From the NCBI GenBank assembly GCA_031285975.1, contig JAITVE010000211.1, positions 1 to 10,673 of the forward strand: a stretch of 10,673 nucleotides of DNA, read 5' to 3'. Below the pieces are notes generated by a model, which saw only the letters and a program-made list of their open reading frames with translations, did not search any database and was not told the DNA's origin. A program made the translations under genes and the position numbers. The DNA comes from Candidatus Adiutrix sp. (GTDB lineage Bacteria; Desulfobacterota; Desulfarculia; Adiutricales; Adiutricaceae). Shown piece after piece: positions 1-10,673 of the stretch (its first letter is position 1; each line of letters opens with the position of its first letter).

Positions 1-714
1 CTGAACCCGGCCCTGAGCCTGGCCGAGCTCCTCCACACCATCGACGCCGAACTGAGCCCGGACGAGGAAACTTTCCGCCTCCGCCTCAGTTCCATCGAAC
101 CCCCGGAACTGGACGGCGAAATCCTGGCCGCCTACGAAATGTACCCCTGGCTGGCTCCCCATTTCCACCTGCCCCTCCAAAGCGGTAGCGACCGGGTGCT
201 GGAACTGATGGGCCGAACCTACCGCGCGGCGCAGTTCCGGGACTTGGTGACCCGCCTGAACCGCAGCTGGCCCCTGGCCGCCATCGGCGTGGACGTGATG
301 GCCGGTTTCCCCGGCGAAAGCGACCGCGATTTCCAAGACAGCTACGATCTCCTGGCCGAACTGCCGGTCAGCTATTTCCATGTCTTCCCCTATTCCAAAC
401 GCCCCGGCACCCGCGCCGCCGAAAGCCCCGGGCAAATCCCGGAACACATAAAACGCGCCCGCGTTCAGGAACTCAAAAAGCTGAACCAAGAGCGCCGCCA
501 AGCCTTTGCCGCCCTCAACCACGGCCAAGCGCAGCTTGGCTTGGTGGAGAACACCCCCCACGCCCCCAGCGGCCGCCTCAAGGTCATCACCGGCAACTAC
601 CTCTCCGCCCTCCTCCCCGAAGACGTTCGCGGGCTGCCTCCCGGCGCGCTCCTTCACGTCGCCATCGAAGCCTCCCGCAACCCTTGGAACCTTTTGGAAG
701 CCAAGCCCGTTTAG
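1..714 (+). CDS. mtaB: tRNA t6A37 methylthiotransferase MtaB, C-terminal part (5' end outside window)
   Basis: Radical-SAM methylthiotransferase that adds a methylthio group to N6-threonylcarbamoyladenosine at position 37 of tRNAs reading ANN codons; cytosolic. The frame is open from base 1, so 237 C-terminal residues are seen of a family usually near 430. The N-terminal domain and the CxxxCxxC cluster motif lie off the window. Visible family motifs, in fragment numbering: RLSSIEP at 28-34, HLPLQSGSD at 56-64, GFPGE at 102-106 and HVFPYSKRPGT at 127-137. A TRAM-like RNA-binding domain follows at about 175-233. RLSSIEP and the FPYSKRPGT stretch fit MtaB better than MiaB or RimO. The TAG stop (712-714) lies inside the first bases of a palindromic element. 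No functional link to the flagellar genes is apparent, and a separate promoter starts those. The family call is firm; the subfamily is likely. Confidence 0.9.
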   Translation: MNPALSLAELLHTIDAELSPDEETFRLRLSSIEPPELDGEILAAYEMYPWLAPHFHLPLQSGSDRVLELMGRTYRAAQFRDLVTRLNRSWPLAAIGVDVMAGFPGESDRDFQDSYDLLAELPVSYFHVFPYSKRPGTRAAESPGQIPEHIKRARVQELKKLNQERRQAFAALNHGQAQLGLVENTPHAPSGRLKVITGNYLSALLPEDVRGLPPGALLHVAIEASRNPWNLLEAKPV

Positions 715-816
715 AGCGCTTTTCTATTGCAAGGTAGTCTGCATGAAATGAAAAGCGCCCGGATGTTTACGTATTTTGCAATTTACTAAAGGCAGGTAAA
801 TTGCAAAATGCTCTAA
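711..816. repeat. Nested palindromic element with TTAGAGC / GCTCTAA ends, overlapping the mtaB stop codon
   Basis: The outer arms TTAGAGC (711-717) and GCTCTAA (810-816) are exact inverse complements. Inside are two more inverted repeats. GCGCTTTTC (716-724) pairs with GAAAAGCGC (750-758). ATTTTGCAATTTAC (773-786) pairs perfectly with 796-809 across a 9-base loop. The outermost bases contain the mtaB stop codon TAG (712-714). No T-run follows the hairpins, so this is not a classical intrinsic terminator, although the 14-bp hairpin could protect the mtaB mRNA 3' end. The ends match those of the element after fliQ (7700-7759), which suggests one dispersed family of small palindromic elements. 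The base pairing is seen directly; family membership is inferred. Confidence 0.75.
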
Positions 817-834
817 GAGAAAGCTCCGCGCGAA

Positions 835-970
835 GATTTATTCTCAGGCCAATTCATTTTGAGAAAATCGCGCTTCTCCCTCCTCGTCATTCCGGCTTTC
901 GCCGGTATGACGGCGGGGGTGGAATGATTTTCCAAATGAGGCCTCCCAGGAGGCCTGGATTTATTCTCAG
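835..970. repeat. Palindromic, MITE-like element flanked by a 13-bp direct repeat
   Basis: GATTTATTCTCAG occurs exactly at 835-847 and again at 958-970. Between the copies lies a nested, imperfect palindrome. The outer arms are 846-869 (starting AGGCC, ending GAAAATC) and 926-944 (starting GATTTT, ending AGGCCT), which pair apart from a few extra bases in the left arm. The core CGTCATTCCGGC (885-896), TTTC, GCCGGTATGACG (901-912) has 12-bp arms with one mismatch. A tight palindrome AGGCCTCC-CA-GGAGGCCT (939-956) sits at the right edge. The GTCATTCC...GGAATGAC style of core is a common REP-like repeat in proteobacterial genomes. Direct repeats flanking an inverted repeat resemble a small transposed element, but 13 bp is long for a target duplication. 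A short frame at 801-995 crosses it and shows no coding character. Confidence 0.6.
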
Positions 971-987
971 CATTGATTCACATAATA

Positions 988-996
988 TGCTATAAT
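988..996 (+). promoter_or_regulatory. Extended -10 (sigma70-type) promoter for the motA operon
   Basis: TGC-TATAAT at 988-996 is a perfect -10 hexamer with the TG of an extended -10 element. No good -35 exists at 16-18 bp spacing (968-973 reads CAGCAT), and TTGATT at 973-978 is too close. An extended -10 can compensate for a weak -35. The start of transcription would fall near 1003, giving an untranslated leader of about 150 bases before motA. It lies in an AT-rich island between the repeats and the operon. Confidence 0.55.
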
Positions 997-999
997 TAC

Positions 1000-1153
1000 A
1001 AGGCCGAGGTGTGCCTTGCCTGGCCCAGGCGGGCGTTGCGCTTCGTTATGTTTAATTAGGGTTAATTTAGGCATGTTTATTGCTTGCCTTGTTTGGGGTC
1101 AGAGAAGTGCCGGGCTGGCCGGTGATTGACCGCTGTTTTTCTTCAGGTGAACT
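1000..1153 (+). other. Predicted 5' leader of motA with small palindromes
   Basis: Right at the predicted transcription start are two adjacent palindromes: AAGGC (1000-1004) pairing with GCCTT (1013-1017), then GCCTGG-C-CCAGGC (1018-1030). They could be an operator or 5' mRNA hairpins. AT-rich TTAATT repeats follow (about 1051-1066). A weak hairpin, GGTCA (1097-1101) with TGACC (1127-1131), encloses CCGG pairs and is followed by five Ts at 1136-1140, so a weak attenuator is conceivable. AGGTGA (1145-1150) serves as the motA ribosome-binding site. No known riboswitch class is recognised here, and no sigma54 or sigma28 site with correct spacing was found. Confidence 0.35.
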
Positions 1154-1918
1154 ATGGATATCGCCACCATTATAGGAATCTTTTCCTGCATTGGACTGCT
1201 GATAGTCTCCATGACTATGGATGTGGGGCTGTCGGCGTTTTACGACCTGCCGTCCATTCTGGTGGTCTGCGGGGGCACGGCCTGCGCCACCATGATTAAT
1301 TATCCCCTGCGGGATTGCCTGAACACCATCTCCGTCCTGAAAAACGCCTTCATCACCCAGCCCATCACCATCGGCGAAATCGTCACCGGCTTCACCACCT
1401 TCTCGGCCAAGGCCCGCAAGGAAGGGCTCCTGTCGCTGGAAAACGACATCAGAAATATCAAAGACCCCTTTTTGCAAAAGGGCTTGCAATTGACCGTGGA
1501 CGGGCTGGAGCCCCAGGCCATCACCGAAATCCTGGAGACGGAAATCGCTTTTCAGGAGTCCCGGCACCGGCTGGGGGCCGATATTTTTCAGACCATGGGC
1601 AATTTCGCCCCGGCTTTCGGCATGATCGGCACCCTCATCGGGCTCATCGCCATGCTTCGCCACCTGGACGACCCCTCCAACATCGGCCCGGCCATGTCCC
1701 TGGCCCTGGTGACCACCTTTTACGGGGCCATTTTGTCCAACATGATTTTTGTGCCCATCGCCGGGAAGCTGCGGGCCCGCTCGCAGGATGAGAGCCGGGG
1801 CAAGGAGCTGATTCTTCAAGGCATCCTGTCGCTGTGCCGGGGCGATAACCCCCGCATTATCGAACAGAAACTGCACGCCTTCCTGCCGCCTTCGGCCCGC
1901 ATTTCCGTTTTTCGGTGA
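1154..1918 (+). CDS. motA: Flagellar stator protein MotA (PomA-like)
   Basis: Inner-membrane stator subunit that surrounds MotB and pushes on the rotor. At 254 aa it is the short PomA-like form. The N-terminus MDIATIIG is typical, and AGGTGA lies upstream at 1145-1150. Membrane segments are at about 1-20, 31-50, 150-170 and 183-203. The cytoplasmic loop carries R88 and E96, eight residues apart in ARKEGLLSLE, matching E. coli MotA R90 and E98, which contact FliG. The C-terminal pair of helices has the hallmark FAPAFGMIGTLIGL (151-164), with P153 at the conserved proline position, and TTFYGAILSNMIFVPIAGKL (187-206). This is the first gene after the promoter, and its TGA overlaps the GTG of the next gene (GTGA), implying translational coupling. 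Whether it uses protons or sodium cannot be decided from the sequence. Confidence 0.95.
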   Translation: MDIATIIGIFSCIGLLIVSMTMDVGLSAFYDLPSILVVCGGTACATMINYPLRDCLNTISVLKNAFITQPITIGEIVTGFTTFSAKARKEGLLSLENDIRNIKDPFLQKGLQLTVDGLEPQAITEILETEIAFQESRHRLGADIFQTMGNFAPAFGMIGTLIGLIAMLRHLDDPSNIGPAMSLALVTTFYGAILSNMIFVPIAGKLRARSQDESRGKELILQGILSLCRGDNPRIIEQKLHAFLPPSARISVFR

Positions 1919-2730
1919 CGGCCGTGAGAAGGCGGGCACGCGGCGGCAACAACCCGGGCGATGGCGGTCGGGGTATGCTGATGCTCACCACCGTGATGCT
2001 GATTCTGCTCTGCTTTTTCGTCTTCATGGTGTCGCGGTCGAACTTTGACGAGGCGAAATACGCCAATGCCGTCCGCTCCATTAAACAGTCCTTCGGCTCG
2101 CTGCCCGGCGGGCGGTCGGCCATGGGGGCGGAGGAGGGGCTGCCGGAGTTCGGCCTGGACGAAGAGGGGCGGCTGACGCGGCCCGATCTGGAAATGGGGC
2201 GCATCCGGGCGGTACTGGCTCCGGCTCTTCTGGACGGGCGGGCGGGCATCATCCACACCCGGAACCGGCGCATTATTTCGCTCTCAGCCGGGCTGGCCTT
2301 TAACCTCGACGAGTCGGCCCTGAGTGAGGAAATGGTGGAAACCCTGACGGTTTTCGCCCAAATCATGGCCGAAAACAACGTGCCCATCGCCGTGGAGGGC
2401 CACACCGACAACACGCCCCCCCAGACCGAGGGGGTGGGCGACAACTGGGACGTCTCCAGCCGCCGGGCCTTGGCCGTGCTGGACTTTTTGACCGCCACCG
2501 GCGGGCTGGCCCCGGCCCGGCTTTCGGCCTTTGCCTATGCCGGAACCAAGCCGCTCCATTCCAACGCCCTCCCCCAGGGGCGGGCCGGGAATAACCGGGT
2601 GGATTTGGCGCTGGATTTTTCCGAAATCACGGCGGCGGAATTGGGGAATTTGGCGGAAAAGGCCACCAGCTACAACTTCCAGGGCTTTGACTTCCTCCTT
2701 CGGGATCCGCAGGGGGGCGCTGATGAGTGA
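1915..2730 (+). CDS. motB: MotB-like OmpA-domain stator protein lacking the channel Asp (first MotB)
   Basis: A 271-aa MotB-family protein with a short basic N-terminus (RRRAR), one membrane helix (about 21-40), a linker with the MotB-like stretch NFDEAKYANAVRSIKQSFG (43-61), and an OmpA-like peptidoglycan-binding domain (about 118-236). That domain is canonical: EGHTDN (161-166, D165), NWDVSSRRA (177-185, R184) and NNRVD (226-230). The helix is not canonical. Aligned on its LLCFFV stretch, the usual W-x-x-T-F-A-D is replaced, T26 sits where the ion-binding Asp belongs, and residues 17-44 contain no acidic residue. The GTG start at 1915 overlaps the motA stop, and the 3' end overlaps the second motB. 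Anchoring to the cell wall looks intact, but ion conduction by this chain alone looks unlikely. GTG at 1924 is an alternative start. Confidence 0.9.
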   Translation: MTAVRRRARGGNNPGDGGRGMLMLTTVMLILLCFFVFMVSRSNFDEAKYANAVRSIKQSFGSLPGGRSAMGAEEGLPEFGLDEEGRLTRPDLEMGRIRAVLAPALLDGRAGIIHTRNRRIISLSAGLAFNLDESALSEEMVETLTVFAQIMAENNVPIAVEGHTDNTPPQTEGVGDNWDVSSRRALAVLDFLTATGGLAPARLSAFAYAGTKPLHSNALPQGRAGNNRVDLALDFSEITAAELGNLAEKATSYNFQGFDFLLRDPQGGADE

Positions 2731-3586
2731 AGCGGCGAAAGCGCAGAATGGCGCGAATCAGGCCTCGCCGTTTGGCGATACCGGCGGTTCCGGTACCATG
2801 CCGCCCCTGCGGAGGCGGCCCCCAAAGGCAGCGGCTGCCGTGGCCCCATCGGGCTGGATGGTCACTTTCGCCGACATGGTGACCCTGCTGTTGACCTTTT
2901 TGGTCATGGTGGTCAGCATCACCACGCTTGACCCGCACACGGTTTTGCCCCTAAAAGAGGGCGTGGTGCTGGAGCGGCCTGTGGACTCCGTGCAACTGGG
3001 CGACGGGGCGCTGCTCTTCGCGGATCAGGGGAAGCTGGCCCCGGTGATTGAACTGGCGGCCAATCTGGACAAACTGCCGCCGGACGTGATGTTCGACCAG
3101 CAGGAGATCAAGAACGCCATCTTCCAGCTTGACCCGGCCAAAACCCCGGACTATGAGCGGATGCGGCAAGCGGCCGACGAGGGCGTGAGCGTCTTCCGCG
3201 ACAACCGGGGGTTGGTGATCCAGTGGGATCGCAGTTTAATTTTTGCCGAGGGCGACAGCCGGTTGCTGGACGAGCACTTGGGCTTGCTCCAAAGCGTGGC
3301 CCTGTTCCTGAAAAGCCTGAGCCTGCCGGTGAGCATTGAGGGCCACACCAACCCCCTTTCGCCTGCGGAGGGCGGCTCGGAAGCGGCGGCCTACGCGCTG
3401 TCCCTGGCGCGGTCGAAGGCGGTGATGGAATATCTGGCCGGGCTGGGAGTGGCTGAAGCGCGCTTCCGCCTGGGCGGCTACGGCGGGGCCCGCCCCCGCA
3501 ACCTTGACCCGGACGCGGCCTGGGAAAACAGCCGCCTGGAAATAGTGGTGTATAAGCCGGAGCCGACCTCGCTGTTCGGGCGTTGA
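2723..3586 (+). CDS. motB: MotB-like stator protein with channel Asp but atypical OmpA domain (second MotB)
   Basis: A 287-aa MotB-family protein. The start is ATG 2723, with AGGGGGG at 2711-2717; the open frame continues upstream only as overlap with the previous gene. A 44-residue Pro/Ala-rich cytoplasmic tail precedes a textbook helix GWMVTFADMVTLLLTFLVMV (44-63), where D51 is the expected ion-binding Asp. A long linker of about 90 residues follows, then an OmpA-like domain (about 155-279). That domain is degenerate at its signature. GHTN (207-210) replaces GHTD, the Asn of the usual NxxLSxxRA is missing, and the usual NRRVE reads NSRLE (269-273). R230, equivalent to the DAP-contacting Arg of OmpA domains, is kept. 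The start overlaps the first motB by 8 bases (ATGAGTGA), indicating coupled translation and probably a joint complex. Confidence 0.92.
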   Translation: MSEAAKAQNGANQASPFGDTGGSGTMPPLRRRPPKAAAAVAPSGWMVTFADMVTLLLTFLVMVVSITTLDPHTVLPLKEGVVLERPVDSVQLGDGALLFADQGKLAPVIELAANLDKLPPDVMFDQQEIKNAIFQLDPAKTPDYERMRQAADEGVSVFRDNRGLVIQWDRSLIFAEGDSRLLDEHLGLLQSVALFLKSLSLPVSIEGHTNPLSPAEGGSEAAAYALSLARSKAVMEYLAGLGVAEARFRLGGYGGARPRNLDPDAAWENSRLEIVVYKPEPTSLFGR

Positions 3587-3630
3587 ACCGGCGGCTTTTG
3601 ACGGTTTCTTTATTAATATGGTTTTTTCGC

Positions 3631-3636
3631 TATAAT
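3631..3636 (+). promoter_or_regulatory. Candidate internal -10 box before fliL
   Basis: A perfect TATAAT at 3631-3636, preceded by CGC, sits in a 70-base AT-rich gap after the second motB, unlike the GC-rich surroundings. TTTATT at 3609-3614 is a weak -35 at 16-bp spacing. TTGACG at 3598-3603 is a better hexamer but 27 bp away, which is too far. Transcription would start near 3643, only about 14 bases before the fliL ATG. The box shares GCTATAAT with the motA promoter. Confidence 0.4.
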
Positions 3637-3656
3637 GGTATTTTGGGAGGTGCGAT

Positions 3657-4304
3657 ATGGCAGCGCAAAAAGGTAAAACCCCGCCCCCGGCGGAAGAAGA
3701 AAGCAAAAGCAGCGCGGGCGAGAGCGGAGCCCCGGCGGCAGCGGCCCCCGCGAAAAAGGGCGGCAAGCTGAAGCTGATAATTATTGTCGTGCTGGCCCTG
3801 GTGGTGGGCGGCGGCGGCGCGGTAGGGGTTATGAAATTCATGGGCGGCGGCTCCCAGCCGGAAGCCGCGGCTGAAGCCCCGGAAGGCGAGCCCGCCGAAC
3901 CCGCCGGTGAAGGCGAAGCGGCCCCCGCCAAAGAAGGCGCGGCCCCGGCTGAGGGCGGTGAAGGCGGCGAAGGCGGTGAGGAAGGCGTGGAGCCCGTAGC
4001 CGACGTCGGCCCCCAGAACATTGAGTTCAAACCCTTTGTCGTCAACCTTGGGGGCGGCAACCGCTTCTTGAAGCTGACCATGAGCGTGGAAGCCGACACC
4101 CAGGAACTGGCGGACGAAATCAATAAAAAAATGCCCCAGTTCCGCGACCTGATCCTCATGCTCCTGTCCAGCCTGTCCTATGACGACATTTCCACCCTGG
4201 ACGGCAAAGTGAGGCTGCGCAACCAGATGCTCAACCGCATCAACATCCAGCTTTCCGCCGGGAAGGTCAGGAACATTTATTTTTCCGAATTCGTGATGCA
4301 GTAA
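3657..4304 (+). CDS. fliL: Flagellar basal body-associated protein FliL
   Basis: Single-pass inner-membrane protein that encircles the stator in the periplasm and supports motor output. It has 215 aa, longer than the usual 150-180. ATG 3657 follows a strong GGGAGGTG site (3645-3652). A Lys/Ala/Pro-rich cytoplasmic tail is followed by a membrane helix (about 38-60). Then comes an acidic Gly/Ala/Glu/Pro low-complexity linker (about 62-118) with a GGE triple repeat. The conserved FliL domain spans about 119-215: FKPFVVNL, KLTMSVEADT, INKKMPQFRDLILMLLSS and the terminal IYFSEFVMQ. The extra length is almost all linker. It stands between the stator and C-ring genes, consistent with its role at the stator-rotor interface. 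The family call is certain. Confidence 0.95.
   Translation: MAAQKGKTPPPAEEESKSSAGESGAPAAAAPAKKGGKLKLIIIVVLALVVGGGGAVGVMKFMGGGSQPEAAAEAPEGEPAEPAGEGEAAPAKEGAAPAEGGEGGEGGEEGVEPVADVGPQNIEFKPFVVNLGGGNRFLKLTMSVEADTQELADEINKKMPQFRDLILMLLSSLSYDDISTLDGKVRLRNQMLNRINIQLSAGKVRNIYFSEFVMQ
3954..3980 (+). repeat. Three tandem 9-bp units in the fliL linker
   Basis: GGCGGTGAA (3954-3962), GGCGGCGAA (3963-3971) and GGCGGTGAG (3972-3980) are in frame and encode Gly-Gly-Glu three times. Copy-number change by slippage would keep the reading frame and alter only the length of the periplasmic linker. Confidence 0.8.
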
Positions 4305-4339
4305 GCCGCAAGGCCCGTGAGCATTGAAGAGGTAGGCCC

Positions 4340-5329
4340 ATGGCCAAAATTCTGACCCAGGATGAGGTGGACGCCCTGCTGAAAGGCATGGGCGGCGGCG
4401 AGGTCGAGACCGAAAGCGACAACAGCGGGGGCGATGAAGGCATCACCCCCTACGACCTCACCAACCAAGACCGCATCATTCGCGGGCGTATGCCCACCCT
4501 GGAAATCATCAACGACCGCTTTGCCCGGTTTTTTCGCCAAACCATGTCCACATCCCTGCGGAAGGTCATTGATATTTCGGCCTTTTCCATTGACATGATT
4601 AAGTTCGGCGAGTTTATGCGGGCACTGCCGGTGCCCACGAGCCTCCACATCTTCAAGGCCGACCCCCTGCGGGGCCATGCCATCATGGTCATTGAGACCA
4701 AGCTGGTGTTTAACTTGGTGGACAGCTTTTTCGGCGGCAGCGGGCGCGGCTACATCAAGGTTGAGGGGCGGGACTTTACGCCTATCGAGGCCCGGCTCAT
4801 CACCAAGGTCATTAAAATGGCCTTGAGCGATTTGGAAAAGGCCTGGAACCCGGTGCACCCCCTGACCCTGAGTTATGTGCGCAGCGAGACCAATCCCCAG
4901 TTCGCCTCGGTGGTGGCCCCCACGGAAGTGGTCATCGTCATCAAGTTCGAGGTGGAGTTGGAGCAGACCGTGGGGACGCTCATCATCTGCCTCCCCTATT
5001 CCACCATCGAGCCCATCCGCTCGAAACTCTACGCGGGCTTCCAGAGCGACCAGCTGGAAGTGGACACGGCCTGGATCAACCGCTTCATCGAGCGGGTGCG
5101 CGAGGCCGAGGTCAACATGATTGTGGAACTGGGCCGGGCCATGGTCACCGGCGAGGACATCATGAACCTGACCACCGGCGACGTCATCATGCTGACCCAC
5201 GATGTGCGGGAACCCTTGGAAGTCAAGGTTGAGGGCGTGCCCAAGTTCAAAGTTTTCGCCGGTTCCTCCCGTGGGCAGAAGGCCGTGCGGGTGGTGGGCG
5301 ACATCGCGCCGAAGATATGGGAAGAGTAA
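4340..5329 (+). CDS. fliM: Flagellar motor switch protein FliM
   Basis: Middle component of the cytoplasmic switch ring; it binds CheY-P and links FliG to FliN. At 329 aa it has normal length. The N-terminal CheY-binding peptide is intact (ILTQDEVDALL, 4-14), followed by an acidic Gly-rich tether (15-35). The CheC-like middle domain (about 36-240) has RFFRQTMSTSLRK and the GGxG motif FFGGSGRG (130-137) that contacts FliG. The SpoA domain occupies about 250-325 (LEVKVEGVPKFKVFAG). ATG 4340 follows GAGGT (4329-4333), 35 bases after fliL. After its stop come 103 bases without an evident gene before fliN. Confidence 0.97.
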   Translation: MAKILTQDEVDALLKGMGGGEVETESDNSGGDEGITPYDLTNQDRIIRGRMPTLEIINDRFARFFRQTMSTSLRKVIDISAFSIDMIKFGEFMRALPVPTSLHIFKADPLRGHAIMVIETKLVFNLVDSFFGGSGRGYIKVEGRDFTPIEARLITKVIKMALSDLEKAWNPVHPLTLSYVRSETNPQFASVVAPTEVVIVIKFEVELEQTVGTLIICLPYSTIEPIRSKLYAGFQSDQLEVDTAWINRFIERVREAEVNMIVELGRAMVTGEDIMNLTTGDVIMLTHDVREPLEVKVEGVPKFKVFAGSSRGQKAVRVVGDIAPKIWEE

Positions 5330-5432
5330 CTCCGCCGGGGCGGCGGCGATGTTCAAACGGTTCAGCCGGGACGCGGCGGCCGTGCCCTTCGTTCAGTTTT
5401 GACAATGACATGGAAAATTCTTGGAGATTACT

Positions 5433-5873
5433 ATGGCTGATACACCCCCCATTTCACAGAACGATCTTGACAAACTCATGAGCGACGACGACGGCCTGGA
5501 GCAGGACTGGGGCGACCCCGGCCCGGCCATGCCCCCGCCGGGTATGGACGTTCCCGGCGGCGGGCCGGGCGCGCATTTCGGCCCGCCCCCCAGCGCGGCG
5601 GCCGACGGCGCCAGCCGCCCGCTGGACTTCATCCTTGACCTTCCCCTGGAAATCTCGGTGGAGCTGGGCCGGGCCCGCATGGTCATCAACGACCTGTTGC
5701 AGCTCGGCCAGGGTTCGGTTATCGAACTGAGCAAGCTGGCCGGCGAGCCCCTGGAAATCTTCGTCAACGGCAAGCTGGTGGCCCGCGGCGAGGTGGTGGT
5801 GGTGAACGAAAAATTCGGCGTGCGCGTCACCGACATCGTCAGCCCCATGGAGCGCGTCAAGAGCCTGAGCTAG
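5433..5873 (+). CDS. fliN: Flagellar motor switch protein FliN with a FliM-like N-terminal motif
   Basis: Lowest C-ring component; it forms rings with FliM and docks the FliH-ATPase complex for export. At 146 aa it is of the usual FliN size. ATG 5433 is chosen because TGGAG (5422-5426) lies 6 bases upstream; a TTG at 5421 in the same frame is inside that site. The SpoA domain (about 63-145) is canonical: DLPLEISVELGRARM, LLQLGQGSVIEL, EPLEIFVNGKLVARGEVVVV and FGVRVTDIV. Residues 7-16 (ISQNDLDKLM) resemble the CheY-binding peptide of FliM. They are joined to the SpoA domain by an acidic and then a Pro/Gly-rich linker (about 17-62). FliY proteins have a similar N-terminal peptide, but the CheC-like middle domain of FliY is absent. 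Confidence 0.95.
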   Translation: MADTPPISQNDLDKLMSDDDGLEQDWGDPGPAMPPPGMDVPGGGPGAHFGPPPSAAADGASRPLDFILDLPLEISVELGRARMVINDLLQLGQGSVIELSKLAGEPLEIFVNGKLVARGEVVVVNEKFGVRVTDIVSPMERVKSLS

Positions 5874-5883
5874 CCCGCCTTGA

Positions 5884-5913
5884 CCGGGCCGCCGCGATAT
5901 CCGCCCGGCCCGG
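5884..5913 (+). terminator. GC-rich hairpin between fliN and fliO (possible attenuator)
   Basis: CCGGGCC (5884-5890) is the exact inverse complement of GGCCCGG (5907-5913), across a 16-base loop. The following bases (CTGTGTTTGATTT) are T-rich but interrupted, so termination would be partial at best. It starts 10 bases after the fliN stop and overlaps the -35 region of the box at 5936-5941. Confidence 0.4.
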
Positions 5914-5935
5914 CTGTGTTTGATTTGAATCGCAC

Positions 5936-5941
5936 TATAAT
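5936..5941 (+). promoter_or_regulatory. Candidate internal -10 box before fliO
   Basis: A perfect TATAAT lies in an AT-rich stretch 19 bases before the fliO ATG. No good -35 exists at 16-18 bp, since that region is the GC-rich hairpin arm; TTGATT at 5920-5925 is only 10 bp away. Transcription would start near 5948, giving a very short leader. With the hairpin just upstream, this would let the export-gate genes be transcribed separately. Confidence 0.35.
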
Positions 5942-5960
5942 AATACGAAAGATACATCTT

Positions 5961-6572
5961 ATGAAAAGCTTAATTGTGCGCGGCTTGACTTCTCTCCTGC
6001 TTTTGGCCGTCCTGACGGCGGCTCCCCTGGCCTGGGCCCAGGACGCCGTTCCGGCGGCCCCCACTGATTTGTCCACGGCCACGGCCTCCGGCACGGTGCA
6101 GCCCATCGCGGCCCCGGCTGAGGCGGCCGCGCCGAGCCAGAGCCCGGCGGCTTCCATGCTGTCCTTCTCCGGCGGCGGGCTGGATTTGCTGAAAGGCATC
6201 GGGGCCTTTGTTCTGGTGCTGCTGCTGCTGTTCCTGGCCCTCAAGGGCCTCGGTCGCTTGGGCCGTTTCAAGGGGCGGCGGGGCCGCGACGCTTTTTTTG
6301 AACTGCGGGGCATTCAGGCCCTCGATAACCGCAAATACCTGGCCGCTGTGGAAGCGGAGGGCCGCATCATCATTGTCGGCGTCACTCCGGATCGCATCAC
6401 CCCTGTGGCCCAGTGGATTGCCGAGCCGGAAGAGGACGACCTCGACCTCTCCACGGCCCGCCTCCCGGCGGACGAACCCGGCCTGGTCTTCAAGCTCCCC
6501 GTCGAAGACGACGACCCGCCGCTGGACATCAGCGTGGTGGACGGCCAGCAGCCTGAAAGGCCCGGCAAATGA
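5961..6572 (+). CDS. fliO: Flagellar biosynthesis protein FliO
   Basis: Membrane protein that assists assembly of the FliP ring in the flagellar export gate. It has 203 aa. ATG 5961 is chosen because it begins a clear signal peptide (MKSLIVRG, hydrophobic 11-23, probable cleavage AWA|Q at 26/27); the same frame is open upstream from 5880. The ribosome-binding site is weak (GAAAG at 5948-5952). An Ala/Pro/Ser-rich periplasmic stretch (27-70) precedes the membrane helix (about 77-96) and a basic flank (GRFKGRRGR). The cytoplasmic FliO domain (about 111-155) has ALDNRKYLAAVEAEGRIIIVG and RITPVAQW. An acidic C-terminal tail follows. Its TGA overlaps the fliP ATG (ATGA). FliO is poorly conserved, but context and domain shape make the call secure. 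Confidence 0.9.
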   Translation: MKSLIVRGLTSLLLLAVLTAAPLAWAQDAVPAAPTDLSTATASGTVQPIAAPAEAAAPSQSPAASMLSFSGGGLDLLKGIGAFVLVLLLLFLALKGLGRLGRFKGRRGRDAFFELRGIQALDNRKYLAAVEAEGRIIIVGVTPDRITPVAQWIAEPEEDDLDLSTARLPADEPGLVFKLPVEDDDPPLDISVVDGQQPERPGK

Positions 6573-7381
6573 CTATCCGGCGGCTGATATATGGGATTCC
6601 GATAGTCCTGCTGTTGACAGTTTTGCTGTCGGCGGCTTTGGATTTTATTGCGCCCGGCCAGGCCCTGGCCCAATCGGTGCCCATCCCCACCATCAGCATC
6701 GCCATGGATCAGGCCGACGACCCGGAGCGCATCGCCACGGTCATCAACATCCTGTTCGTGATGACCGTGCTGGCCCTGGCCCCCTCGATCCTGATTCTCA
6801 TGACCTCCTTTGTCCGCATCGTGGTGGTCTTCAGCTTCCTCAAGCAGGGCATGGGCACCATGAACTCGCCCCCCAACCAGGTCATCATCAGCCTGGCCCT
6901 GTTCATGACTTTTTACCTGATGATGCCGGTGTGGAAAGACATCGAGGCCCGGGCCTTCAAGCCCTTCATGGCCCACGAGATTACCCAGACCGTGGCTCTT
7001 CAGCGGGCCTTGGTGCCGGTGCGGGAATTCATGTTCCTGCAAACCCGCGAGAAAGATTTGGCTCTCTTCATGCAGATTGCCGGGGAGAATCGGCCCCTGA
7101 ACAAAGCCGAAGTGCCCACCATGTCGCTGATTCCGGCCTTTGTGATTTCGGAATTGAAAACGGCTTTCACCATCGGCTTCCTGCTCTACATACCCTTTGT
7201 GGTCATCGACATGGTGGTGGCCTCGGTGCTCTTGTCCATGGGTATGATGATGCTGCCGCCGGTGATGATTTCGCTGCCCTTCAAGCTCATGCTCTTTGTG
7301 CTGGTGGACGGCTGGAACCTGGTGGTGGGCTCCATCATCCGCAGTTTCGGCGACATCGCCCGCGTGGTGGGGGCCGGTTAG
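6569..7381 (+). CDS. fliP: Flagellar type III export gate protein FliP
   Basis: Core export-gate protein; five copies with FliQ and FliR form the helical channel inside the MS ring. At 270 aa it is of typical length. A signal peptide occupies about 1-34 (probable cleavage ALA|Q). Family signatures are TSFVRIVVVFSFLKQGMGT (79-97), SPPNQVIISLALFMTFYLMM (100-119), ISELKTAFTIGFLLYIPFVV (193-212) and DMVVASVLLSMGMMMLPPV (214-232). The methionines at 226-228 match the Met gasket of the channel. LPFKLMLFVLVDGWNLVV (236-253) is also present. ATG 6569 overlaps the fliO stop by 4 bases. Nothing is missing or truncated. Confidence 0.97.
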   Translation: MTIRRLIYGIPIVLLLTVLLSAALDFIAPGQALAQSVPIPTISIAMDQADDPERIATVINILFVMTVLALAPSILILMTSFVRIVVVFSFLKQGMGTMNSPPNQVIISLALFMTFYLMMPVWKDIEARAFKPFMAHEITQTVALQRALVPVREFMFLQTREKDLALFMQIAGENRPLNKAEVPTMSLIPAFVISELKTAFTIGFLLYIPFVVIDMVVASVLLSMGMMMLPPVMISLPFKLMLFVLVDGWNLVVGSIIRSFGDIARVVGAG

Positions 7382-7393
7382 AAAAGGAAAACT

Positions 7394-7702
7394 ATGACCC
7401 CTGAATTCGTGATAAATTTCGGCCGTCAGGCCATGGAGATGGTGCTCCTTCTGGCCCTGCCCATGCTTGGGGTGGGGCTGGTGGTGGGCCTGGTGGTCAG
7501 CGTGTTTCAGGCCACCACCCAGATTCAGGAAATGACCCTGCAATTCATTCCCAAAATCATCTGCATTTCCCTGACTATGGTGGTGGTCGGCCCCTGGATG
7601 CTGGAAGAGCTGACCGACTACACCGTCAACATCATCACCAGCTTCCCGGAGTGGGTGCGCACCGGCTTCGGCCTGGCCAATATCGGCATCAGTATGCCGT
7701 AG
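7394..7702 (+). CDS. fliQ: Flagellar type III export gate protein FliQ
   Basis: Two-helix export-gate subunit that packs around the FliP-FliR core. ATG 7394 follows AAGGAA (7384-7389), 12 bases after fliP. The first membrane helix is at about 15-37 (MEMVLLLALPMLGVGLVVGL). It is followed by the conserved VFQATTQIQEMTLQFIPKI (37-55), and the second helix is at about 56-80. The protein has 102 aa, while FliQ is usually close to 89. The extra residues are a polar C-terminal tail (about 88-102). Its TAG stop (7700-7702) is formed by the first bases of a palindromic element, so the tail may reflect loss of an earlier stop when that element arrived. The family call is certain; the origin of the tail is inferred. 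Confidence 0.95.
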   Translation: MTPEFVINFGRQAMEMVLLLALPMLGVGLVVGLVVSVFQATTQIQEMTLQFIPKIICISLTMVVVGPWMLEELTDYTVNIITSFPEWVRTGFGLANIGISMP

Positions 7703-7759
7703 AGCATCCAACAAGGCAAAAACCGGCAGAGCCGGACTTTTGCCTTGTTGGTGCTCTAA
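7700..7759. repeat. Long hairpin element with TAGAGC / GCTCTAA ends, between fliQ and fliR
   Basis: The left arm 7700-7721 and right arm 7738-7758 are inverse complements over 21 bp, with one extra T in the left arm (7707). The arms run from TAGAGCA at the outside to AAGGCAAAA at the inside. An inner hairpin CCGGC-AGA-GCCGG (7723-7735) caps it. The first three bases are the fliQ stop codon. No T-run follows, but a hairpin this long in the mRNA could pause transcription or stabilise the upstream message. The outer bases match those of the element at 711-816, which also takes in a stop codon. Confidence 0.8.
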
Positions 7760-7767
7760 TATAGGGA

Positions 7768-7782
7768 ACCGGCTTCGCCGGT
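7768..7782. repeat. Small hairpin ACCGGC-TTC-GCCGGT upstream of fliR
   Basis: Perfect 6-bp arms at 7768-7773 and 7777-7782 enclose TTC. It resembles the core CCGGC-TTTC-GCCGG at 892-905. It lies 27 bases before the fliR start, just upstream of an AT-rich stretch. Its role is unknown. Confidence 0.5.
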
Positions 7783-7799
7783 CGAAAATTATTTTAAGA

Positions 7800-7812
7800 A
7801 AGGTATGGATTG
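7800..7812 (+). promoter_or_regulatory. Ribosome-binding site deciding the TTG start of fliR
   Basis: AAGG at 7800-7803 lies 6 bases before TTG (7810-7812). The nearby ATG at 7805 is in another frame and too close to the site. In the fliR frame, a TAA at 7795-7797 blocks any start further upstream. Confidence 0.75.
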
Positions 7813-8601
7813 GGCGCTCCGGTCATCAACGCGGCGGAATTCGCCGCCTTTGTCCTGGTGCTGCTGCGGGTCTCCGTGGTGGTGGTGGTGGCCCCCATTT
7901 TCGGGGGCAACACCGTGCTGAGCCAGATAAAGGCGGCTCTAGCCTTGATGCTGACCTTCGCCATCGCCCCGATGGTGGAATACACCGCCGACATGATGCC
8001 CATGACCTGGTTCGGCTTTCTGTTTCTGGGCCTGGGGGAAGTCATGCTCGGTTTCGCCCTGGCCTTCATGGTGCGGCTGGTCTTGGAAGCCGCCAACGTG
8101 GCCGGTGAGTACATGAGCTTCCAGATGGGCCTGTCCATGCTCAACGCCATGGATCCCCAAAGCGGCGGGCAGGTGCCGCTTTTGTCGCTGTTCGTCCACA
8201 TGATCGTCATCCTGGTGTTCCTCTATGCCAACGGGCACATGCTGGTCATCAAGGCCCTGGTGGACAGCTTCCAAATCGCCCCGCCGGGTTTATTAAACCT
8301 CTGGAAGCCGGACATGTTCACGGAAGTGGTGCGGGCCATGACCGGGCTGTATGTGCTGGCCCTGAAAATCGCGGCCCCGGTCATCGCCGTGCTCTACTGC
8401 GTGAAGGCGGGCTTCGGCATTACGGCCAAGGCCGTGCCGCAGATGAACATCCTTTTTGTGGGCATCCCGGTCTATCTCATCGTGGGCTTTCTGGTCATGG
8501 GTTTTGGGATGCCCTGGTGGCCGCAGATGCTCGGGAGCGTGCTCATTGAAGTGGACGGCGCTCTGGGCCGGGTGTTGAATTTCTTTGCCCCGGCCATATA
8601 A
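7810..8601 (+). CDS. fliR: Flagellar type III export gate protein FliR
   Basis: Integral membrane export-gate protein, one copy completing the FliP5-FliQ4-FliR1 complex. At 263 aa it is of normal length. The TTG start is supported by AAGG 6 bases upstream and by an N-terminus that fits the family (INAAEFAAFVLVLLRVSVVV, 6-25). Membrane segments are at about 10-30, 40-58, 68-95, 125-150, 175-200 and 212-240. The family signatures APIFGG (28-33), GEYMSFQMGLSML (99-111), DPQ (115-117) and PQMNILFVGIP (210-220) are visible. It is separated from fliQ by 107 bases holding a long hairpin, the one real break in this otherwise tight stretch. A weak start codon plus an upstream hairpin could keep FliR, the lowest-copy gate subunit, at a low level; this is inference. 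Confidence 0.95.
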   Translation: MGAPVINAAEFAAFVLVLLRVSVVVVVAPIFGGNTVLSQIKAALALMLTFAIAPMVEYTADMMPMTWFGFLFLGLGEVMLGFALAFMVRLVLEAANVAGEYMSFQMGLSMLNAMDPQSGGQVPLLSLFVHMIVILVFLYANGHMLVIKALVDSFQIAPPGLLNLWKPDMFTEVVRAMTGLYVLALKIAAPVIAVLYCVKAGFGITAKAVPQMNILFVGIPVYLIVGFLVMGFGMPWWPQMLGSVLIEVDGALGRVLNFFAPAI

Positions 8602-8625
8602 TCCAAGGGAAAGGAGGTAAATTCC

Positions 8626-9711
8626 ATGGCCAACGACGAAGGCGGCGAGAAAACAGAAGAGGCCAGCGGGCACAAGCTTTCGGAAGCCCGCAAAAAAGGC
8701 CAGGTGCCCAAGAGCATGGAAGTGACCTCCGCCCTGGTGCTGCTGGCCGCCGGGGCCAGCCTGGTTATTTTGGGCCCCCTGGGCTGGGACAGGATGATGG
8801 GCATGTTCCGCCATTTCGTCTGGCGCATGACGGAGTTCGACCCCACCACCGTTGACCTCTGGCCCTGGTTTTACACCGCCTTCCGGGAGGTGCTGATTCT
8901 GGTGCTGCCCCTGGCCTTCATCATCATGATCGTCAGCGTGGCCGTGAACGTGTTCCAGATAGGCGGCTTTATGGTGGTTTCCGACGCGGTGACCCCGAAG
9001 CTGGACAAGCTCAATTTCATCAAGGGCTTCGGCCGCTTCTTCAAGCTCAAGAGTGTCGTCGACGGGCTGAAGAGCGTCTTGAAGATAGGCCTGATTTTTT
9101 ACATGTCCTACCTGGTCATCGAGGATCACCTGGAAGAATTCGCGGTGATGAGCCAAATGGAAGCGGCCCAGATGGGGCTTTTGACCATGCGGGTGATCGC
9201 GGAGCTTTTCTTCAAGGTGGTGATTACCCTCCTGATCCTGGCCGTGTTCGACTATGCCTATCAGAAGTGGCAGTTCATGCAGGACATGAAGATGAGCAAG
9301 CAGGAGGTCAAGGACGAATACAAGCAGATGGAGGGCGACCCCAAGGTTAAGGCCCGCATCCGCCAAATTCAGATGGAGGCCTCTAAAAAGCGGATGCTGG
9401 GGGACGTGCCGAAGGCCGACGTGGTCATCACCAACCCCACCCACTTCGCCATCGCCCTGGTCTACAACGCCGCCATGGCCCAGGCCCCCCTGGTGCTGGC
9501 CAAGGGGCAGGACTTGATGGCCCAGCGCATCAAGGACGTGGCCAAGGAATCGAAAATCCCCATCGTGGAAAACAAACCCCTGGCCCAGGCTCTCTACAAG
9601 GTGGTGGAGGTGGGCCAGGTCATCCCCCTGGAATTTTACAAAGCCGTAGCCGAGGTGCTGAGCTACGTCTACCGTCTCAAAGGCAAGGTGCCCGGTGGCC
9701 GAAGAAGATAG
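8626..9711 (+). CDS. flhB: Flagellar export switch protein FlhB
   Basis: Export-gate protein that switches substrate specificity from rod/hook to filament after self-cleavage. At 361 aa it has normal length. ATG 8626 follows a near-perfect AAGGAGGT (8611-8618), much stronger than for its neighbours. The N-terminus is typical ([20 protein letters not shown], 6-25). Four membrane segments lie at about 33-52, 88-112, 150-166 and 190-210. A charged linker (about 218-258) leads to the cytoplasmic domain with the autocleavage motif N270-P271-T272-H273 (codons 9433-9444), followed by the family stretches [15 protein letters not shown] and [14 protein letters not shown]. All cleavage residues are present. 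The stop lies 17 bases inside the next gene if flhA starts at GTG 9695. Confidence 0.97.
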
Positions 9712-10673
9712 TTTCCTTTCAAAAATCAAAGCCCGGCTGATGAACTCGGGCGGCGAAGTGGCCATGGGCGTGGGGGTGGTCTCCATCCTGGCGGTGATGA
9801 TTTTCCCCGTGCCCACCGTCGTGCTTGACCTGTGCCTGACCTTCAACATCACCATGTCCATCATCGTGCTCTTGACCGCGCTTTACACCTTGAAGCCGCT
9901 GGACTTTTCCATCTTCCCCTCGCTCCTCCTGGTGCTGACCCTTTTCCGTCTGGCCCTGAACGTGGCCACCACCCGCCGCATTCTTTTGGACGGCTACCAG
10001 GGGCCGGACGCGGCCGGGGACGTTATCCAGGCCTTCGGCTTTTTCGTGGTGCAGGGCGATTATTTGGTTGGCATCATCATTTTCGCCATTTTGGTGCTGA
10101 TTAACTTCATGGTCATCACCAAAGGTTCGGGCCGCATCGCCGAAGTGGCCGCCCGCTTTACGTTGGACGCCATGCCCGGCAAGCAAATGGCCATCGACGC
10201 CGACCTGGCCGCCGGGCTCATCGGCGAAGAGCAGGCCAAGGAGCGCCGCAACACCATTGCCCGCGAGGCCGACTTCTACGGGGCCATGGACGGCGCCTCA
10301 AAATTCGTGCGCGGGGACGCCATCGCCAGCATCATCACCACGGTCATCAACCTGGTGGGGGGGCTGATTATCGGCATCATCCGCCACAACATGGACGCGG
10401 CCACCGCCGCCCAGAACTACACCATCCTCACCATCGGCGACGGCCTGGTGGGGCAGATTCCGGCCCTTTTGATCTCCACCGCTGCGGGTATCATCGTCAG
10501 CCGGGCCGGGGCCGAGCAGACCATGAGCAAGGACTATGCCCGGCAGTTCACCCTGCGGCCGGAAGCCCTGGCCCTGGCCGGGGCGGTGGTCTTCATCTTC
10601 GGCTTGCTCCCCGGTATGCCCACCGTGGCCTTCTGCGCCACCGGGGCTTTGATCGAGGCCGCCGCCTTCGCCT
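9695..10673 (+). CDS. flhA: Flagellar export gate protein FlhA, N-terminal part (3' end outside window)
   Basis: Nonameric membrane protein of the flagellar export apparatus that receives substrates and couples export to the proton gradient. About 326 of roughly 700 residues are seen, mostly the membrane domain, with no frame break to the window end. The GTG start at 9695 gives [17 protein letters not shown] and has AAGGTG at 9685-9690. ATG 9740 would drop 15 residues and remains possible. Signatures are [15 protein letters not shown] (39-53), [17 protein letters not shown] (81-97), the FHIPEP stretch [15 protein letters not shown] (154-168), [18 protein letters not shown] (194-211) and the helix GLIIGIIRH (223-231). 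The 17-base overlap with flhB is consistent with coupled translation. Confidence 0.96.

Follow-up and report, generated by a model that had tools for sequence, protein, structure and literature searches.

The window considered here is the whole of a 10,673-nucleotide stretch from Candidatus Adiutrix sp. (assembly GCA_031285975.1, contig JAITVE010000211.1, positions 1 to 10,673 of the forward strand), a member of the family Adiutricaceae, class Desulfarculia, phylum Desulfobacterota. It carries one motA gene followed by two unlike motB genes, motB1 and motB2 (their products are called B1 and B2 below; Table 1), in what appears, from gene names read from the open reading frames (ORFs), to be a flagellar operon. 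One MotA accompanied by two unlike MotB proteins, only one of which bears the ion-binding residue, suggests a lopsided motor unit, which would have one ion site instead of two. The locus belongs to a variant set of flagellar stator genes that occurs throughout the phylum, and no description of it, or of an Asp-less or paired MotB arrangement, was found in the literature searched (among the best matches listed, at most 20 per search, e.g. 20 of 65 and 20 of 325, with few subscription papers).

The first-pass annotation of this DNA had described reciprocal defects in the two MotB proteins, B1 lacking the channel Asp and keeping the wall anchor, B2 keeping the Asp and having an altered anchor, and had seen the three genes coupled by overlaps of 4 and 8 bases. 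Both observations agree with our results. In a profile alignment with the MotB of 6YSF, the column of the ion-binding Asp, which was also set by an alignment of 246 MotB-like rows, holds Thr23 in B1 and Asp51 in B2. Judged by sequence, the wall-binding Asp/Arg pair is present in B1 (Asp162 and Arg181) and incomplete in B2, where the Arg is retained (Arg230, positions 3410-3412) and Asn210 replaces the Asp. According to the available text of PMC6572160, the Asp/Arg pair of OmpA (D271/R286) binds diaminopimelate; by our own assignment, this pair would correspond to the anchor Asp and Arg columns of B1 and B2. The motA/motB1 overlap covers positions 1915-1918 (4 bases, provided that GTG 1915 is the start codon) and that of motB1 and motB2 positions 2723-2730 (8 bases).

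Table 1. Genes and residues of the motA-motB1-motB2 locus and its downstream neighbours (positions in the window)
Feature	Position	Strand	Basis or remark
motA, PomA/MotP-like, sole MotA gene in the operon	1154..1918	+	Pfam MotA_ExbB, 109.4 bits
motB1	1915..2730, start GTG 1915 or GTG 1924	+	single MotB-type transmembrane helix without Asp, OmpA domain, extra C-terminal tail
B1 Thr23 (numbering from GTG 1924), column of the MotB ion-binding Asp	1990..1992	+	profile alignment with 6YSF MotB
B1 wall-binding Asp162 (2407-2409) and Arg181 (2464-2466), kept	2407..2466	+	alignment
B1 C-terminal tail with GFxF motif, after the OmpA domain	2671..2706	+	comparison of B1 loci
motB2	2723..3586	+	MotB-type transmembrane helix with Asp, altered OmpA domain
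B2 Asp51, ion-binding Asp kept	2873..2875	+	alignment
B2 Asn210, found instead of the OmpA-domain anchor Asp	3350..3352	+	alignment
fliL-like gene, then fliM, fliN, fliO, fliP, fliQ, fliR, flhB	3657..4304 (fliL-like)	+	names from reading of ORFs

MotA looks complete, its residues 2-249 aligning with solved MotA chains (8UCS/6YSF) at 222 bits, and it misses the NCBIfam equivalog cut-offs (best score 269.5 versus 394). Both MotB proteins score above the Pfam gathering thresholds of MotB_plug (26.8 for B1 and 39.4 for B2, cut-off 24) and OmpA (59.3 and 37.3, respectively, cut-off 27.2), and both miss the NCBIfam MotB/MotD/MotS equivalog cut-off of 283, with best scores of 100.8 (B1) and 72.1 (B2). 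Their predicted models have a mean pLDDT (predicted local distance difference test) of 80.1 for B1, whose C-terminal tail is of low confidence, and 83.5 for B2. Fold searches matched the periplasmic domains of MotB/MotS/PomB with B1 and those of MotS/MotB with B2, i.e. they indicated a MotB-type periplasmic fold for both proteins and nothing beyond it.

Distribution of the B1/B2 pair

A search of the phylum with a B1 profile at E 1e-22 matched 315 of 394 genomes, ordinary MotB proteins included. The phylum loci that were read number 118 (L159-L276; 18 outside the class and 100 further stretches, one per genome), and as they were taken from the best E-values of that search, the 46 pairs and 72 lone MotB proteins among them are no estimate of frequency. 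Family, class and phylum loci together comprise 86 adjacent B1/B2 pairs and 74 loci with a single MotB.

The ion-binding Asp is kept by B2 in all 86 pairs, while in B1 it is absent from 71, present in 14 and cut off in one (L258, unscorable at this position), so that 71 of the 85 scorable B1 proteins lack it. The residue found in its place is Ser in 48 proteins, Ala in 11, Gly in 6, Thr in 5 and Cys in 1. Lone MotB proteins have the Asp in 72 of 74 loci, the exceptions (L035 and L174) being B1 proteins cut by a contig end, which have no readable B2 and stand outside the pair set. The asymmetry of the Asp between B1 and B2 is beyond chance. The gene order recurs as well: of the 72 pairs whose B1 is Asp-less or unscorable, 70 have motA within the stretch that was read, versus one of the 14 Asp-bearing pairs, an association that is not an independent statistic, since related lineages share gene order and Asp state. 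The window and these 70 pairs fit the proposed type, i.e. motA with an adjacent motB1 (no Asp) and motB2 (Asp). A contig-break or frameshift artefact was ruled out, the trio being open in many independent genomes.

Thirteen of the Asp-bearing B1 genes have no motA in the stretch read (L181, L184, L186, L190, L191, L206, L232, L233, L236, L241, L248, L249 and L271). A MotA_ExbB match, taken as MotA, was found 15.7-17.0 kb off on the same contig in 8 of these 13 genomes. Of these 13 pairs, four had their upstream stretch read; it holds a flgI-like gene in L181 and L191 and none in L206 and L249.

The wall anchor is distributed differently. B1 retains the anchor Asp in 83 of 86 pairs, and outside the window's family so does B2 in 55 of 57, the remainder being one Ser (L055) and one cut sequence (L062). 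Within the family the same column of B2 holds Asn in 23 of 29 proteins and Asp in 6, and B1 has the Asp in 28 of 29. Counting both chains, every one of the 86 pairs has at least one ion-binding Asp and 85 have at least one anchor Asp. The change in the B2 anchor is thus nearly confined to the window's family, whereas the loss of the Asp from B1 is phylum-wide.

B1 was found in 32 of the 37 family genomes. Of the 30 family B1 loci read, 25 have Ser and 5 have Thr at the position of the Asp, and Asp is present in all 29 family B2 proteins from loci with a readable B2; these 29 pairs are close kin and represent few events. The pocket Asn and Trp are replaced in all 29 family B2 proteins and present in all 29 B1 proteins; outside the family these residues vary too (Asn in 44 and Trp in 36 of 57 B2 proteins). 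Seven B2 relatives from the family (P0138, P0171, P0194, P0197, P0206, P0207 and P0212) are listed with MotB_plug and with no OmpA domain, in line with a change in the wall-binding domain.

B1 has a further feature of its own. The GFxF motif of its tail occurs in 58 of the 73 Asp-less or unscorable B1 proteins and in all 14 Asp-bearing ones, in none of the 86 B2 proteins and in none of the 72 lone MotB proteins; L174, which is without the motif, was counted apart. The 15 B1 proteins without GFxF all come from the wider phylum or class and none from the window's family. The tail may serve in docking.

Some genomes lack the pair. Among those of the family, G001 (without B1 and B2) has neither a FliM nor a MotB_plug match, G036 (without B1, 68% complete) has no FliM match, and in G027 (without B1) FliM lies 0.7 kb from the contig start. 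Seven g17 genomes that were tested (G043, G048-G051, G054 and G056) have neither FliM nor the trio; these and G001 look non-flagellate and are also without B1 and B2. In the class genome G046, FliM and a lone MotB are present and the trio is not.

In protein searches, Candidatus Adiutrix sp. and Desulfomonilia names were among the matches listed, and no laboratory species carrying B1 was among them; a literature search on D. vulgaris locus tags yielded no paper. Relatives that bear a name are Candidatus Adiutrix sp. as well as Deltaproteobacteria strains or metagenome-assembled genomes (MAGs), including Nc350_bin97, Pcl387_bin74 and Smac51, all of which we take to be termite-gut bacteria. In a profile scan of contigs, most matches were OmpA proteins, chiefly from Bacteroidota, and only two named MAGs were of use.

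The transmembrane helix of B1 and its history

With helix positions numbered relative to the ion-binding Asp (position 0), Trp occupies -6 in 98-100% of the sequences of the three groups that bear the Asp; -3 is Thr or Ser in 100% of them, and so is +3 in 93-100%. In the Asp-less B1 proteins (n=71), Trp is found at -6 in 14%, position -3 is mostly Leu, Met or Val, and position +3 is mostly Leu, Ile or Met. The same proteins have Phe at +8 (99%) and +9 (100%), both together in 70 of 71, and a single residue prevails at 80-89% at each of +4, +5, +6 and +10. One face of the helix has thus for the most part been lost in one piece while the remaining positions were kept, and the preservation of Phe-Phe suggests that the Asp-less helix probably still serves in a stator.

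Phylogenetic trees were built without L062, L172 and L258. In a tree of 146 rows (8 family loci included) most B1 and B2 sequences separate, although 7 B2 rows, all from one group, are placed with B1; at least three changes of the Asp state are required. In a quick tree of 72 rows (4 family loci), from which 17 columns around the Asp were excluded, the B1 sequences form one side of a branch with a support of 91 (not starred). Forcing the 44 Asp-less B1 sequences of this tree together costs 132 log-likelihood units (approximately unbiased test, p-AU 2.2e-6), the Asp-less group having been named after the 146-row tree had been inspected. A single loss of the Asp with no later change was accordingly rejected under the model used. 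The Asp-less B1 proteins are not one clade and, within the sample, the Asp has changed more than once and in B1 only. Loss followed by regain is less likely, since the 14 Asp-bearing B1 proteins keep Trp at -6 and Thr at -3 in all cases and Thr at +3 in 13; repeated loss explains why the whole ion face is kept in these proteins.

These data bear on the idea that B1 is a decayed copy of MotB that is in the course of being lost, or else a wall binder unrelated to the motor. Ordinary decay of a paralogue could produce a transmembrane helix devoid of Asp and a MotB_plug score as close to the cut-off as that of B1. On the other hand, B1 is present in many of the phylum's families, where its helix motif and anchor Asp are strongly conserved, motA accompanies it in nearly all Asp-less or unscorable pairs (70 of 72), and the same residue has been changed repeatedly in the same paralogue. 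We consider decay, or a role outside the motor, very improbable.

A candidate asymmetric stator

MotB_plug was searched in 36 pair genomes, namely 35 of the 42 non-family genomes with a scorable Asp-less B1 and G151, which has an Asp-bearing pair. In 21 of the 35 the only matches were B1 and B2, and others were present in 14; in G151 the matches were those of its pair only. FliM is present in all 22 genomes whose sole MotB_plug matches are the pair (draft genomes, each count resting on one profile). B1 and B2 being the sole matches alongside FliM, the stator of many flagellate genomes must, as far as a single profile on draft genomes can show, come from this gene set. This result fits both an axle made of B1 and B2 and an axle of two B2 chains with B1 beside it.

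Of the readings that we considered, the best supported is a MotA5-MotB1-MotB2 stator with a B1-B2 heterodimer as its axle and one ion site, and we hold the chances that it is right to be about even. What we infer is that B1 and B2 pair, that the chains stand at 5:1:1, that B2 no longer binds the wall, and how many ions are used. MotA, B1 and B2 would be made together, and the two MotB chains would form the axle inside a ring of five MotA subunits. As only B2 bears the Asp, MotA would be driven through its one site and the axle would act as 5:1. B1 would fill the second helix position with an ion face of small or hydrophobic residues unable to become charged, so that it should be no obstacle in the variant of the model in which a charged site blocks rotation. 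B1 would also tie the complex to the cell wall. At most of the phylum loci read B2 should be able to bind the wall too, and in the window's family anchoring may have largely passed to B1. The kept stator helix of B1, the complementarity of the pair and the poorly anchored appearance of the family B2 favour this B1-B2 arrangement.

The 5:2 rotary model, as given in the available text of PMC9389320, uses 10 ions per turn of MotA in 36-degree steps through two nominally identical sites, and a motor of type a:b uses a times b ions; the same text treats 5 ions per turn as a case for an entirely new model. A MotA ring turning on a B1-B2 axle would take 5 ions in 72-degree steps instead, and its torque limit would be halved. 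If this is true, there is a natural one-site stator that allows direct tests of site number, step size and torque, and an axle of two unlike chains has been able to evolve.

Several observations weigh against such an axle. Beyond the family, B2 is complete as a MotB and might form working homodimers by itself, and 14 relatives of B1 retain the ion-binding Asp. In E. coli, MotB with Asp changed to Asn is dominant-negative, so one would expect an axle with a single Asp not to work there. In the family, B1 and B2 alike have another residue for the first Arg of NRR, which gives no sign of a division of labour; as the pocket Asn and Trp vary outside the family as well, the Asp is left as the only clear contrast between the two wall-binding domains. 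In L009, from the window's genus, neither protein has the anchor Asp at its column (B1 reads HTSD there), and in L173, L175 and L176 the anchor Arg of B1 is Met or Lys.

Further counter-evidence comes from the host genome, a 2.4 Mb draft in 417 contigs that is 78% complete. It has an additional, ordinary MotA/MotB pair on contig C261, and ordinary MotB proteins exist besides the trio in 31 of the 36 other family genomes (32 of 37 in all; classed by score, the sequence having been read for that of the host genome alone). The first-pass annotation had regarded a separate canonical motAB pair that does all the work as fatal to the asymmetric stator. Such a pair is there, and it is possible that it does all the work in this genome; no other MotB_plug match was found in the 21 further trio genomes with FliM.

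It had also been expected that the two motB genes would always be gained or lost together, which does not hold strictly. In G030, B2 lies near a contig start and is not directly preceded by B1. In G002, FliM and an ordinary MotB were found but no trio, and 1.7 kb of other DNA precedes its fliL-like gene. G002 shows that the whole trio can be missing where an ordinary MotB exists, while in G030 B2 may exist on its own, or a repeat may have been inserted close to a break in the contig. Bases 1-634 of the G030 locus (L278) are a low-complexity repeat, directly upstream of motB2 in the expected place of motB1 and near the contig end. Besides the FliM match near motB2, the same genome has two more, side by side (C356:7831-8409 and 9624-10202).

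The completeness of B2 outside the family, where 55 of 57 proteins have the anchor Asp, gives rise to a strong rival explanation, namely that the working stator consists of MotA and B2 homodimers and that B1 is a wall-binding membrane accessory beside the MotA ring and never within it, placing or holding the units in the manner of MotY or FliL. The tail motif, which B2 and the lone MotB proteins do not have and which could bind another motor part, speaks for such a role, and so does the anchor Asp kept by B1 in 83 of 86 pairs. The helix of B1, on the other hand, has kept Phe-Phe (70 of 71), and +4, +5, +6 and +10 are each dominated by one residue (80-89%), the loss being mainly that of the ion face, which seems to be beyond the needs of a plain membrane anchor. 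Moreover, with the changed wall-binding site of the family B2, a homodimer of it may have only a poor hold on the wall. We regard an accessory B1 as rather unlikely, but as an explanation to be taken seriously.

A mixed assembly may also be imagined, in which MotA rings would contain B2-B2 or B1-B2 axles (and idle B1-B1 axles) and the B1:B2 ratio would tune the number of active ion sites and thereby torque or ion cost. It agrees with the shared operon and overlapping genes, with the anchor Asp that both proteins mostly keep outside the family, and with the ordinary MotB that, in 32 of the 37 genomes of the family, doubles the stator sets once more. It can be argued, however, that B1-B1 rings would waste MotA, that overlapping genes suggest near-equal synthesis and not tuning, and that family B2-B2 axles may anchor badly. 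We find this improbable.

On balance, the asymmetric stator with a B1-B2 axle proposed in the first-pass annotation gains from the recurrence of the motA-motB1-motB2 order and of the Asp asymmetry, from the stator-type helix of B1, from the complementary Asp residues and from the 21 FliM genomes in which the pair stands alone; it loses from the complete B2 outside the family, the ordinary motAB on C261 and the exceptions G002 and G030. On the furthest-reaching reading, the trio would be the sole stator of many genomes, and B1 would have lost its ion site several times independently, perhaps giving a low-cost gear to energy-poor anaerobes; we rate this reading as a whole at somewhat below an even chance. 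If B1 is an accessory protein instead, it is still widespread among the flagellar genes of this phylum.

In the region upstream of motA, the window contains a palindromic repeat-like sequence at positions 885-912, cgtcattccggctttcgccggtatgacg, and similar short repeats, judged by eye, lie near the motAB pair of C261. Positions 139-714 encode, by reading only, the C-terminal part of a radical-SAM methylthiotransferase-like protein.

Comparison with known systems

Among solved stator structures, we take 6YKM to be from Campylobacter, 6YSF from Clostridium sporogenes and 6YSL from Bacillus, and 8BRI to be PomAB. The window proteins resemble those of MotA5-MotB2 stators: MotA can be aligned with the 6YSF MotA along its length, and the profiles of B1 and B2 match 6YSF MotB across the transmembrane helix and the wall-binding domain. 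The window operon differs in having two unlike B chains, one of them Asp-less, whereas in known stators, as we understand them and as far as the available text of PMC9389320 goes, the B chains are alike and Asp-bearing.

An operon of one motA followed by two motB genes is also known from Aquifex aeolicus, in which the transmembrane and N-terminal regions of the two MotB proteins are 97% identical (PMC4525482, in the text available). Chimeras of either of them with the periplasmic part of E. coli MotB gave slight motility together with Aquifex MotA, according to the same text. The gene order is shared with the window, in which, unlike the near-identical transmembrane regions described for Aquifex, that of B1 is without the ion face. 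A duplication of the Aquifex type was ruled out for our locus by the transmembrane helix, B1 and B2 differing at -6, -3, 0 and +3.

In the AglR-AglQ-AglS gliding motor of Myxococcus, one MotA-like protein is combined with two MotB-like proteins, and AglQ and AglS are both predicted to have the transmembrane Asp (PMC9389320 and PMC9120999, in the portions available); whether they form heterodimers or homodimers is called an open question in PMC9389320. So far as these portions go, the Agl motor resembles the window operon in its one MotA-like and two different MotB-like proteins, and differs from it in the Asp predicted for both of the latter and in not being a flagellar stator.

The B2 profile also reaches solved chains of MotY (E ~1e-11). 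MotY has an OmpA-like wall-binding domain and is located beside stators. As for FliL, a separate fliL-like gene lies, by reading, just downstream of the trio. Unlike MotY and FliL, B1 retains the MotB-type stator helix.

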